Shown here: in pieces, positions 43,981 through 60,255 of the stretch
Position numbering within the stretch: position 1 is the stretch's first letter
How the letters are laid out: each line of letters opens with the position of its first letter
NCBI GenBank assembly: GCA_958295935.1
Contig: OY282385.1
Span: 2,335,545-2,399,544, forward strand
Reading direction: 5' to 3'
Source: an uncultured Dehalococcoidia bacterium
Lineage (GTDB): Bacteria > Chloroflexota > Dehalococcoidia > Lucifugimonadales > Lucifugimonadaceae
Length of the DNA stretch: 64,000 bases
Program-made: the position numbers and the translations under genes
Notes under the pieces: generated by a model
Told to the model about the DNA's origin: nothing
Database searches by the model: none
Seen by the model: only the letters and a program-made list of their open reading frames with translations

Positions 43981-43999
43981 TCACTTCACGAGAGTATAG

Positions 44000-44031
44000 A
44001 AGGCCCCCGAGAACGCGTTCCCGGGGGCCTT
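44000..44031. terminator. Bidirectional intrinsic-type terminator
   Basis: A 10-bp stem AAGGCCCCCG/CGGGGGCCTT extended inward by GAAC/GTTC. It is 80-110 nt downstream of the selW stop on the minus strand and 230 nt after the antiporter stop on the plus strand. The U-tracts are short (TTATT; TTCTAT). Confidence 0.65.
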
Positions 44032-44110: not shown

Positions 44111-44392
44111 TTATACCGGTACAGCCGACTTGGCCTCGATTTTGTTACGCACCGCGGCCTTGACGTCCTTAGTTTGCACCAAGTTGGGCGTCTGGCCTGT
44201 CTCGGCCTTGTCGTACACCGTCTCGCCGTCCACGGTGACCGTGAAAACGCCGTTGGCGCCGGGTACTACGGTGATACCGACGTCCCCTCCACCTGCATCA
44301 AAGATCTCGCTTACCATCCAGGCAGCCACGTTGTGGTAGCCTCAGGGCACGCAATAAGTGATCTCGGCGTGTACCTTCCATTCGTCCGCCAT
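44111..44392 (-). CDS. SelW/Rdx-family selenoprotein with in-frame UGA (Cys-Val-Pro-Sec)
   Basis: 93 codons with an in-frame TGA at 44344-44342 (residue 17). The residues read IT-Tyr-Cys14-Val-Pro-Sec17-Gly-Tyr, which is the C-x-x-U/C redox motif at the start of the SelW/SelT/SelH thioredoxin-like (Rdx) family. Downstream, TVDGETVYDKAETGQTP is the family's beta-strand/turn. GGAGG 8 nt before the ATG at 44392 and a promoter fitting consensus support this start; without recoding the frame would stop after 16 residues. A predicted SECIS hairpin follows the UGA. Role is inferred as a small thiol/selenol redox protein. Confidence 0.88.
44309..44326 (-). promoter_or_regulatory. Candidate bacterial SECIS element in the SelW gene
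   Basis: On the mRNA a stem GCUGCC/GGU-A-AGC with one bulged A and a 5-nt loop UGGAU starts 15 nt after the UGA. The loop begins 21 nt after the UGA and has a G in its first two positions, as in the bacterial SECIS model (loop 16-37 nt from UGA). The stem is short, so only moderate support. Confidence 0.55.
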
Positions 44393-55544: not shown

Positions 55545-57677
55545 CTAACGGGTAGGCTCTTCTTCGGAATCCTCGATCGAATCTGCGGAGGTCTCAGGTG
55601 TTGGCTGTTCGGTTACGAAGTGAAGCAGCCGTCCTCCCACGCCGAGCCAGGTGTGTTCGTCAAGTGTCACGACGCTATCGGCGGGCCGGCTGTTTACGCG
55701 CAATGATGGATCGCCGTCGGCAGGTGTGTAGCGTAACTCCACCCGGTCGGATCTGAAGTGGAATTCGCCTCCATTGAAAGGCAGACTGGGTAATTCGCTA
55801 GCCCCCACCCGGTCTTTGGCTAGCAATAGTCGTTTGGGGTCTCGTTCCACCCGGTTGAAGTCGACTATAAGGCGATTCATGTCGTCGTAGACGTACCCGT
55901 ATGGTTTGGTTCGGCTGAGGAACCAAGCCGCAGGGGTTCCGACTAACAGGGCAATGATCGCCAGCGGCAAGATCACGGTCCATATGGGAAATCCGCCTTC
56001 GGGATCTTCCTCTACTGTATCTGTATCGGGTGTGGGTGTGGCTTTCCTGATCGGCGTGGCTGTTGGTACTGGGGTGGGCTGGATGACGGTGATACTGACC
56101 GAGGGGCCTGCGAGAACCGCGTTGAACGGCCGGCCCAGGTGCTCGGAGTCCAACGACACTTGCAATTCATAATCTCCGGACTCTATGGGCGCTGCGTACA
56201 CTTCGAACTGCCATGCCAGTCCGTCGTCGAACTCTTCAACGGCTACAAATTCCACAGGCAATTCGTCGACCGGGCCGGTCAGCATCCCCCTCATTTCGTC
56301 TGCCTCCAAAAGGTGTGGGAACCCGCCGGTGGTGACCTCGACGATTGCTACTCGGGCATTGTCGCCTGGCGTCAACGTCGGTTCCTCGGAACGATTCAGG
56401 CTAAGCTTCGGGAAGTGTTCGGTGTGGTATACGCCACTTCCCCGAATGAGGGCGTCGTAATCGTCCCACGTCAGTTCTAACTGAACGTCGTTGACTCCCT
56501 GAGCTTCCGGCGCGGGTATGGCTGCGGAAAAGATGCCGTCTTGGGTTATCTCGTCGCCTGCGACGCCCCTGTCGTTCAACTCTCTGGTCTGCGTGACGCC
56601 GTCCGGCTGCTGTACGGTGGCCTTTAGGCGTGCTGCGGCAAGGGGCTGGGGCTGTCCTTCGATCATTGCGGCGACGGTGATTAGTCCGGGCTCCCCAATG
56701 GGTAGCGGAGGCTGGGGTATCAACTCCAGTTGAATGGGGTTTTTGATCTCTGCATAGGCTAGGAGTTTTAGGCCAGCCCCGACACCCCTCAGTCTCCACT
56801 CGCCCGGCGTAGGCTCGCTCACTGTGTAGGTCACAGTGTTATGCATCTCTTGAACGTCGATATTGGGGAACTCGTTGGTTGCGGGCGCTGCGTTGGGTCT
56901 GAACAAAGTGACCTGTGTGGCCGAGTTGATTCGTACGAAGACGACTCGAAGCGAGCGGGTGTGCGGGGCGATTTCTGCGGAAGCGATTGACTCTGTTCCG
57001 GGACGCAATTCAGCGTCGATGAGTACCACTCCTTCCAGGCCTATCTCTCTAGCGAGGAGTTCGCCGATTCCCTGGCCCGTGCCCAGATCGTAGTAGTCGC
57101 CTCCGGACTCTCTGGACACCTCCGACAGAAGCTCGCGGGCCGGGATTCCGGTAGTTGGCAGGGTCATGACGTCGACGCGCCAGTTCTGTGCACCGAACAG
57201 TTCGCCGGTCTTTGCCATCTGCGTCCTGGTGGCTTCGGTTTCTCCGAGGATTCGTCCGGGAGTGATGAGAACCACCCGGGTTTCGTCGGGAGCGATGCTG
57301 CTTGCCAGGTAGGCGAAAATGTCAGACAAAGCCCCGGTCTGATCGGAGCGCGCGATCACCGGGGCGTTCTGGAGGCGTTCGATTGCTTTTTCCAGCTCCT
57401 CGTCGTATGAGTCCTGCACGTCTACGGGTAGTGTGAAGTCGTAAGGCGTTATTCCGTAATCGACCAGGACTAATTTCCCGCGCTCCATAGCGCCGGCCAC
57501 TGTCCTCATCGCAGTTTCGGCCATTTCCCGGTCGAGCGAGTCGCCCGCGGCTCCAAGGTCGACTGCGATTACGGTAAGAGGGTCGTCGGTATCTTGGGCT
57601 ATGGCTGGCGGGTGGTACGACAGTGCGAGCAGTAAGGAGGCAGCCGATAGCGCTACTGACGCGATCAGACGGAGCAT
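55545..57677 (-). CDS. Secreted VWA-like protein with C-terminal membrane anchor
   Basis: 710 aa. Signal peptide (1-27). A von Willebrand A-like domain (about 34-230) runs from VIAVDLGAAG through VLVDYGITPYDFTL and VVLITPGRIL. Beta-rich repeats follow. A Thr/Pro-rich linker PTPVPTATPIRKATPTPDTDT precedes a transmembrane helix near residues 575-595, and a cytoplasmic part of about 100 residues ends with an FHA-like end (HTWLGVGGRLLHF). Function unknown. GGGGGAG 7 nt before the ATG sets the start. Confidence 0.7.
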   Translation of the reverse strand: MLRLIASVALSAASLLLALSYHPPAIAQDTDDPLTVIAVDLGAAGDSLDREMAETAMRTVAGAMERGKLVLVDYGITPYDFTLPVDVQDSYDEELEKAIERLQNAPVIARSDQTGALSDIFAYLASSIAPDETRVVLITPGRILGETEATRTQMAKTGELFGAQNWRVDVMTLPTTGIPARELLSEVSRESGGDYYDLGTGQGIGELLAREIGLEGVVLIDAELRPGTESIASAEIAPHTRSLRVVFVRINSATQVTLFRPNAAPATNEFPNIDVQEMHNTVTYTVSEPTPGEWRLRGVGAGLKLLAYAEIKNPIQLELIPQPPLPIGEPGLITVAAMIEGQPQPLAAARLKATVQQPDGVTQTRELNDRGVAGDEITQDGIFSAAIPAPEAQGVNDVQLELTWDDYDALIRGSGVYHTEHFPKLSLNRSEEPTLTPGDNARVAIVEVTTGGFPHLLEADEMRGMLTGPVDELPVEFVAVEEFDDGLAWQFEVYAAPIESGDYELQVSLDSEHLGRPFNAVLAGPSVSITVIQPTPVPTATPIRKATPTPDTDTVEEDPEGGFPIWTVILPLAIIALLVGTPAAWFLSRTKPYGYVYDDMNRLIVDFNRVERDPKRLLLAKDRVGASELPSLPFNGGEFHFRSDRVELRYTPADGDPSLRVNSRPADSVVTLDEHTWLGVGGRLLHFVTEQPTPETSADSIEDSEEEPTR

Positions 57678-57766
57678 CTATCTTCTCCCCCAAAATTCGC
57701 TGGGGTAACCTCTGCCGGGCGCGAGGTACCCGAACGCAAGGGAATTATCAGGTTATGCATGAGGAG

Positions 57767-57789
57767 GTGTTTTACTCTAGGGTAAACAC
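57767..57789. repeat. Inverted repeat, possible operator
   Basis: GTGTTT and AAACAC arms flank 11 nt, and further partly pairing bases give a 23-nt dyad. It is about 90 nt upstream of the VWA-like gene. Confidence 0.35.
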
Positions 57790-58014
57790 TGCCTAGTTTG
57801 TCGCATTGGCAAGAGAGGATCCATCTGTCAGGCGTGCGTCCTCTTTCATTCTGGCAAAAAGCCCGCCTATGCGAAAGCGCTGGCTGAGGGTGGAATTCAT
57901 GGTGTGGGTTGGGAAGGTCTTATGCCTCAATACTACCCGACGCATTGAGGCGCCTTCTGCGAGAAAAGCGGGTTACTGGTTCAGGGTTAACCGTGATCAT
58001 GGGGGGATGCAAGT

Positions 58015-58200
58015 ATGTGCAGGACGGTAGCGGCTCCTCTAGCCGTTGCTTTGGGCAGTGCGGGTACGGCTGTGGGGCTGGCTCTTGCGGTACTGCGCGC
58101 GCGGGTCGACCGCAGAGCGGATGAGCGAGCCAGAGATGAGGCGAGCGAGCGCGATGGCCGGGGGAATAGTGGAAATGGTGAGGGGGAAACGCAGCGATGA
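58015..58200 (+). CDS. Candidate small membrane protein (hypothetical)
   Basis: 61 codons, ATG with GGGGGGA about 7 nt upstream. One hydrophobic Ala/Leu/Val segment (about 5-27) is followed by a highly charged Arg/Asp/Glu tail. No family recognised; could be chance, since the region is GC-rich. A Cys-rich alternative frame overlaps it. Confidence 0.3.
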   Translation: MCRTVAAPLAVALGSAGTAVGLALAVLRARVDRRADERARDEASERDGRGNSGNGEGETQR

Positions 58201-58209
58201 GGGTTTTTT

Positions 58210-60255
58210 TCACGCTCGCCCCAACTGTCGCGTTAACTCCGCCGGATCGGTCGTAGGCGCTTGGCACGAGTAGTTCTCGCACAGGTACGCGGCGGGCTTG
58301 CCTCCTATCAGTCCCTTGCCCTCAAGCAGAGGTGTCGTCCCTACATCTACCAAGCTTGGCGCTCCTGCCAGAATGCGGTTGGGCGCGTACCCTGATCGAG
58401 CCGCGTTGAGCAGCTCCGAGTATGACGGGTCATCGGGTGGGCCTATCACTGCCAGTTCCTGGACGCGCGACAGGTAAAAGTCGAGTGCGCATAGCCACCA
58501 TGCGAGGCCGCTTGGAGCTTGGGGCATGAGTCCACTAACCGACCTGAGCGCTGATTCCGCGGTGCGGCGGTAGGCGTTTTCGCCTGTGAAGGCGCTCAAC
58601 CTCAACAGCGCGCTAGCCGCTGCGGACCCTCCGCATGGCATGGCGTTATCGAAAACGTCTCGGGGTCTGACGATTAGCTGCTCTTGATCCATGCCGGTGT
58701 CGTACAGGGCCCCATCGTCGTCATCCATGAACAGGTCCGGGATTCGGTCTGCCAGGCTTTGGGCTTCATCGAGCCATCGAATGTCGAAGGTCGCTTCGTA
58801 TAACGAGATCAAGGCGTCGGCCAGCAAGGCATAGTCTTCAAGGTACGCTTTCAGTTTTGCCTGTCCGTCTTTCCAGGTTCTGAGTAGCCTGCCGTTGACG
58901 ACCATGTTGGACAACAAGAACTCTGCGTTTGCTATTGCGGCGTCAACCCACTCTGGGCGGTTCAGATATGCGCCGCACTCGGCGAACGCCTTCATCATCA
59001 TGGCGTTCCACGCGGTGATGATCTTTTCATCGCGGCTTGGGCGCACTCGCTTGGCTCTAGCCTGGTAGAGACGTTCTTTGGCCTCGCTGACCAGGCGGAG
59101 CAACTCGTCCACCGGGACGTCGATCGCGGCCGCGGCCTCTTCGTCGGAGCGCGGGAGGTTGAGGATGCTCTTTCCCTCCCAGTTACCCTCTTTGGTCACT
59201 CCCCAGTACTCGGTGGCGATGCGTCCGAGTTCTGGCCCGAGTTCCTGTTCGATCTGCCTTGGCAGCCAGGTGAAGAACTTACCTTCTTCGCCTTCGGAGT
59301 CGGCATCCTGTGCGGAGTAAAATCCCCCTTCGGGGTGAGTCATCTCCCTTAGCACGTAGGCGAGTGTATCTTCCACTACCCTCTTGAAGAGCGGGTCTCC
59401 GGTCGCCTGCCATCCGTGCAGGTATAGGGATGCCAGTAGTGCGTTGTCGTATAGCATCTTTTCGAAGTGCGGTACCAGCCATACGGAGTCTGTGGAGTAG
59501 CGGTGGAATCCCCCTCCTATCTGGTCGCAGATGCCTCCGCGGGCCATTTTCTTCAAGGTAGTGCGGACAATGTTCAGGCAGTCTGCGGAGCCGGTCTCTT
59601 TCCAGTAGCGCAGCAGAAACTCGTACACCATGGGTTGGGGGAACTTCGGCTGAAGTCCTATGCCGCCGTTCTCGAAGTCGGCGTCTCGAGTGATGCCGAG
59701 GAAAGCTTGGACTATCAGGTCTCGATCAAGGGGTTCAGCGCCGGGCCTCGGGGCGGTCTGGGCCTGGATGGCGCCTATGACGCGGCTTGAATTGGAGAGA
59801 ATCTCGCTGCGACGGGTGTTGAAGGCCTGGGCTACGGACCTGAGCACCCTGGGAAAACTTGGCATACCGCCTCGGTCTTCCGGGGGGAAGTAGGTTCCTC
59901 CAAAGAAGGGCCGCCCTTCCGGTGTCAGGAATACCGTGGTGGGCCATCCGCCATGGCCGGTCATCGCCTGTACCGCGGTCATGTATATCGAGTCCACGTC
60001 TGGGCGTTCTTCGCGGTCTACCTTGACGTTGACGAACGACTGATTCATCAGGCTTGCGATCTGCGGATCTTCGAAGGACTCTTTCTCCATGACGTGGCAC
60101 CAATGGCAGGATGAGTAGCCTATGCTCAGGAGTATCGGCTTGTCCTGCAACTTGGCCGCGGCCATGGCGTCGGGGCTCCACGGATACCAATCTACGGGGT
60201 TGTCCTTATGCTGCAGGAGGTAGGGGCTGGTTTCGTTTGCCAGTCTGTTCGGCAT
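58210..60255 (-). CDS. DUF255 thioredoxin-domain protein (YyaL/SPATA20 family)
   Basis: 681 aa. An N-terminal thioredoxin fold (about 1-165) carries [16 protein letters not shown], with Cys50 and Cys53, and [16 protein letters not shown]. An (alpha/alpha)6 glycosidase-like barrel follows with [19 protein letters not shown] and [15 protein letters not shown]. The cellular role of this family is not established; a redox function is inferred. It lies 3 bp after the thioredoxin-NHL selenoprotein, so they are co-transcribed. Confidence 0.88.

Follow-up and report, generated by a model that had tools for sequence, protein, structure and literature searches.

A predicted SelW-like selenoprotein gene with an in-frame UGA codon in a SAR202-type Chloroflexota genome

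An ORF on the minus strand (44392 to 44111) of the 64,000-nt stretch of DNA analysed here (the window) almost certainly is a true selenoprotein gene of a SAR202-type Chloroflexota host, with its product belonging, within the Rdx (SelT/SelW/SelH) family, to the SelW-like branch, as judged from sequence comparison. Its UGA codon occupies the second active-site position of a CxxU redox motif, is replaced in relatives by cysteine codons and by nothing else, and is followed by a hairpin which covaries in the UGA-containing relatives. The genes for selenocysteine (Sec) insertion are present in the same genome.

Reading frame and family of the gene

The ORF runs from the ATG at 44392 to a TAA ending at 44111 and contains a single in-frame TGA at 44344–44342, in the context ITYCVP-U-GYHNV. 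With UGA read as Sec, it encodes 93 aa (TAA stop included in the coordinates) and its translation reads MADEWKVHAEITYCVP-U-GYHNVAAWMVSEIF..., in which Sec is residue 17 and the resolving cysteine of the CVPU motif is Cys14 (TGC, 44353–44351). The ATG lies 16 codons upstream of the TGA and is preceded, by sequence, at a distance of 8 nt by a Shine-Dalgarno GGAGG (44405–44401). Frame, translation and Shine-Dalgarno sequence all agree with an earlier note on this DNA, in which every coordinate was correct. As that note had also anticipated, mechanical ORF calling starts at the internal GTG (Val22, 44329–44327) and yields a 72-aa ORF which loses the CxxU active site. A further scan of the window detected 42 other frames with a Cys-adjacent UGA that could be read through, most of them expected by chance.

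The earlier note had proposed a promoter with 18-nt spacing, but a consensus scan of the locus gave no promoter-like site and nothing above chance; the best reading with that spacing found by eye, TTGGTC...TATGAT, is weak. About 80 nt after the stop codon, between the convergent genes for the SelW-like protein and a Na/H exchanger, lies a G+C-rich hairpin of 12–13 bp (43999–44031, given for the minus strand; fold z -2.63), which is probably the terminator of the SelW-like gene and possibly serves both genes. We infer this role because the tail is too poor in T for the terminator consensus scan, which gave no match at this hairpin. An Rfam search of the locus returned just two sub-threshold His_leader matches, which were treated as chance.

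The readthrough product scores 61.7 bits against Pfam Rdx (PF10262; E 7.6e-17; curated cut-off 22.6 bits) and 44.3 bits against TIGR02174 (SelT/SelW/SelH; cut-off 34.2). The fragment starting at the GTG reaches 37.2 and 23.6 bits, respectively, the second value lying below the TIGR02174 cut-off. With 46.2 bits against a curated cut-off of 88, the readthrough product is not a member of the equivalog NF041051 (SelTWH_Campy). An AlphaFold2 model, built from an alignment of 29 rows with C replacing U, had a mean pLDDT of 89.9, and places the motif Cys14-Val-Pro-Sec17 directly after the strand formed by residues 7–14, as in Rdx proteins. The top Foldseek matches of the model were all SelW-related structures, with TM values of 0.66–0.75 for the bacterial crystal structures and 0.76 for the NMR structure of mouse SelW (2npb); by sequence, too, the protein is closest to bacterial SelW-related proteins among those with solved structures.

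Codon at the active site and the downstream hairpin

A homologue search covered 149 genomes and gave matches in 115. For 100 homologue copies, all within the GTDB order of the host, the position of Sec17 holds TGA in 68, TGT in 19 and TGC in 13, with no other codon observed, while the codon for Cys14 is TGC or TGT in all 100. A collection of named genomes, which overlaps with this set, gave TGA in 36 copies and TGC or TGT in 44 (20 and 24, respectively). This alternation between TGA and the two cysteine codons is more than chance. In the 68 copies with TGA (Sec copies), the mismatch rates upstream of the TGA are 0.24, 0.19 and 0.57 at the first, second and third codon positions, respectively; since variation falls mainly on third positions, the stretch upstream of the TGA is coding. 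Coding conservation is seen on either side of the TGA. A start preceded by a Shine-Dalgarno sequence was found 13–18 codons upstream of the TGA in 64 of these copies. At one homologous locus (L171, 2501–2761), the Sec-containing SelW frame itself terminates at a TGA, with a second stop directly after it, in the same gene that carries the recoded TGA.

These data bear on one alternative, namely that the UGA acts as an ordinary stop codon and that translation starts at GTG 44329 to give a 72-aa Rdx-like fragment devoid of the active site. Such an ORF does exist mechanically, and it retains a match to Rdx (see above). However, its start is not conserved, with ATG or GTG found at that codon in just 34 of the 68 Sec copies, and protein-level selection acts on the codons before the TGA. 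The Cys copies continue through the site with TGC or TGT at the same codon, and no homologue has TAA or TAG there. The comparative data thus refute a plain stop, to which we assign a very low probability. The start downstream of the UGA, which the earlier note had named as grounds for giving up its reading, is accordingly not shared by the homologues.

The selenoprotein reading calls attention to the sequence following the TGA, for which +1 denotes the first base after that codon. The earlier note had placed a stem-loop 15–33 nt after the UGA, and the element is upheld by covariation across relatives and not by the fold of the single sequence. It spans +15 to +33 (44327–44309, minus strand), with +18 to +21 pairing with +27 to +30 around a UGGAU loop (44320–44316). 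Among 91 pairs of third codon positions tested in the Sec copies, +18/+30 is the strongest, with UA, CG, GC and AU all occurring; because both bases are third positions, their pairing is not dictated by the protein. A standard pair is present here in 63 of the 68 Sec copies, with 29.6 expected from shuffles (z 9.3), and the mean hairpin energy in these copies is -9.0 kcal/mol versus -6.1 kcal/mol for codon shuffles preserving the protein, although such shuffle statistics overstate the significance since the homologues are related by descent. The Cys copies are a better control than codon shuffles: +18/+30 is paired in 11 of 32 of them, with 11.2 expected, and the loop UGG, which is a Trp codon, is found in 8 of the 32 versus all 68 Sec copies.

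In an additional set, the Sec copies breaking the +18/+30 pair have the sequence GCUGCC-UGGAU-GGUCAGC, whose stem can pair again if one base is bulged. The hairpin in the window, GCUGCC-UGGAU-GGUAAGC, is of this same class, and two of its lower pairs require a bulge or mismatch; folded on its own, the window sequence gives another hairpin at minimum energy (z -0.26). Taken across the relatives, the comparison supports the assignment of +15 to +33 as a bacterial-type SECIS element.

Selenocysteine machinery of the host

The host, a SAR202-type member of the Dehalococcoidia (Chloroflexota), has a genome of 2.75 Mb in a single contig; the named SelW homologues likewise come overwhelmingly from the SAR202 cluster or Dehalococcoidia. 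The earlier note had proposed looking for Sec machinery in the same genome, and all four components are present, each with a match over the curated cut-off: selA (2504438–2505766; 516 bits), selB (57380–59224; 337 bits), selD (970798–971724; 381 bits) and tRNA-Sec with anticodon TCA (UCA; 2535117–2535210; 70 bits). With machinery present and the downstream start not shared by the homologues, the interpretation of the ORF as a SelW/Rdx selenoprotein carrying Cys-Val-Pro-UGA is supported. The host selD (locus L025, 1501–2427, plus strand; C1:970798–971724 in the genome) has its own in-frame TGA within the catalytic motif, ECGG-U-AGKF, and is probably a second selenoprotein gene. Across genomes, SelA is present in 80 of 84 with a TGA-containing SelW gene versus 36 of 65 without one (Fisher p 4e-9), where the 84 genomes were taken from the match table and the codon was read directly in 100 copies only. 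The four genomes having such a SelW gene but no SelA are incomplete (74–82%).

The machinery also bears on whether the UGA could be read as Trp or another residue, through an altered code or plain suppression. Any readthrough would give an open frame, and no specific support for this possibility was seen. Cysteine is the sole alternative residue at the site in both homologue sets, the tRNA with the TCA anticodon is called as tRNA-Sec and occurs alongside SelA, SelB and SelD, and the other genes of the window show the ends and open frames expected from translation table 11; we therefore consider decoding as a residue other than Sec highly improbable. Least probable of all is a pseudogene or sequencing error in which a cysteine codon was mutated or misread, since TGA, despite being one base away from TGC and TGT, recurs across many assemblies and many families of the order, in 68 of the 100 homologues, the flanking codons are intact, and the hairpin is maintained in the TGA copies only.

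In bacteria, Sec is inserted when SelB decodes a UGA at a hairpin. By analogy with this bacterial decoding, SelB with Sec-tRNA(UCA) and GTP would bind the UGGAU loop and deliver Sec at the UGA of the SelW-like gene. Judging from the family, the CxxU motif and the fold, the selenolate of Sec17 in this thioredoxin-like protein may attack an oxidised thiol, a disulfide or a peroxide. Cys14 would then form a selenenylsulfide to resolve the intermediate, after which regeneration of the protein would fall to a thiol reductant, e.g. glutathione or thioredoxin.

Sec and Cys copies in SAR202 and relation to known families

A protein tree was computed after masking the Sec column. On this tree, midpoint-rooted and from a short alignment, 30 of the 31 Cys rows group in one well supported clade next to the Sec rows, and the label changes twice overall. 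The Cys paralogue clade seems to have dropped the SECIS together with the UGA, a direction which, given the midpoint root and the short alignment, we infer. In several genomes, Cys and Sec copies are adjacent, while the genome of the window has a Sec copy only. Such tandem Cys/Sec genes occur at loci L070, L041, L074, L060 and similar ones, in relatives of Ca. Lucifugimonas and in others, and their Cys copies do not have the covarying hairpin. A SAR202-like tandem pair was also found on a contig labelled Gammaproteobacteria (L143), which is probably mis-binned or mislabelled. It is conceivable, if rather doubtful, that SelW was duplicated in SAR202, that in one copy Cys took the place of Sec and the SECIS disappeared, that many genomes retain a tandem pair whose members divide their roles (for example, with the Sec copy serving when selenium is available), and that the organism of the window kept the Sec copy only. 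The related Sec and Cys copies offer a natural comparison for the decay of a SECIS after a Cys codon has taken the place of the UGA.

The SelW-like CxxU family was reported in 2005–2008 as the most abundant selenoprotein family of marine bacteria (PMC1088965, PMC2398784). It ranked first by abundance in the Sargasso Sea set, with 48 genes (PMC1088965), and by size in the GOS set, with 427 sequences (PMC2398784), and its motif was taken to suggest a redox role (PMC1088965). Rdx/CxxU is also a listed family of prokaryotic selenoproteins (PMC9312934). The gene in the window is therefore a further member of an established family and leaves the understanding of Rdx/SelW unchanged. As to the hosts, a census of 2006 gave three selenoproteins of three families for Chloroflexi (PMC1794560), and a sponge-microbiome paper noted that SelA and SelB co-occur in most symbiont bins from various phyla. 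No report of a SAR202 SelW gene was found in the literature searched (SAR202 with SelW or selenocysteine), a scope that leaves out most subscription journals, and "seleno" or "selenium" is absent from the main text of a 2023 paper on cultivated SAR202. In SAR202-type Chloroflexota, which are abundant in the ocean and can now be cultivated, both the Sec trait and a SelW-like selenoprotein occur widely.

The Sargasso Sea and GOS papers (PMC1088965, PMC2398784) describe marine bacterial SelW-like selenoproteins that resemble the protein in the window in having CxxU, about 90 aa and the Rdx fold, as well as a SECIS located just after the UGA with a G in the small apical loop. In contrast, the host here is a SAR202-type member of Chloroflexota, a phylum not named for SelW-like proteins in the passages searched, and the protein and its relatives share a conserved motif CVPU-G-[YH]-H which differs from the SelW-like proteins described there. 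The Cys-containing Rdx proteins of known structure (2fa8, 2oka, 2ojl, 2obk, 2p0g and 3dex) are alike in sequence and predicted fold but have no UGA, whereas the gene in the window encodes Sec as the second active-site residue. The Cys paralogues of SAR202, such as the tandem partner in Ca. Lucifugimonas marina (CP046147), are about 50% identical with a CVPC motif, and differ in having no UGA and no covarying hairpin and in having mostly lost the UGG loop. Mouse selenoprotein W (2npb) shares the CxxU motif and, as noted above, the fold at only 19% identity. It is established (PMC1088965) that the SECIS of eukaryotic SelW lies in the 3' UTR, whereas the hairpin in the window is located inside the coding sequence.
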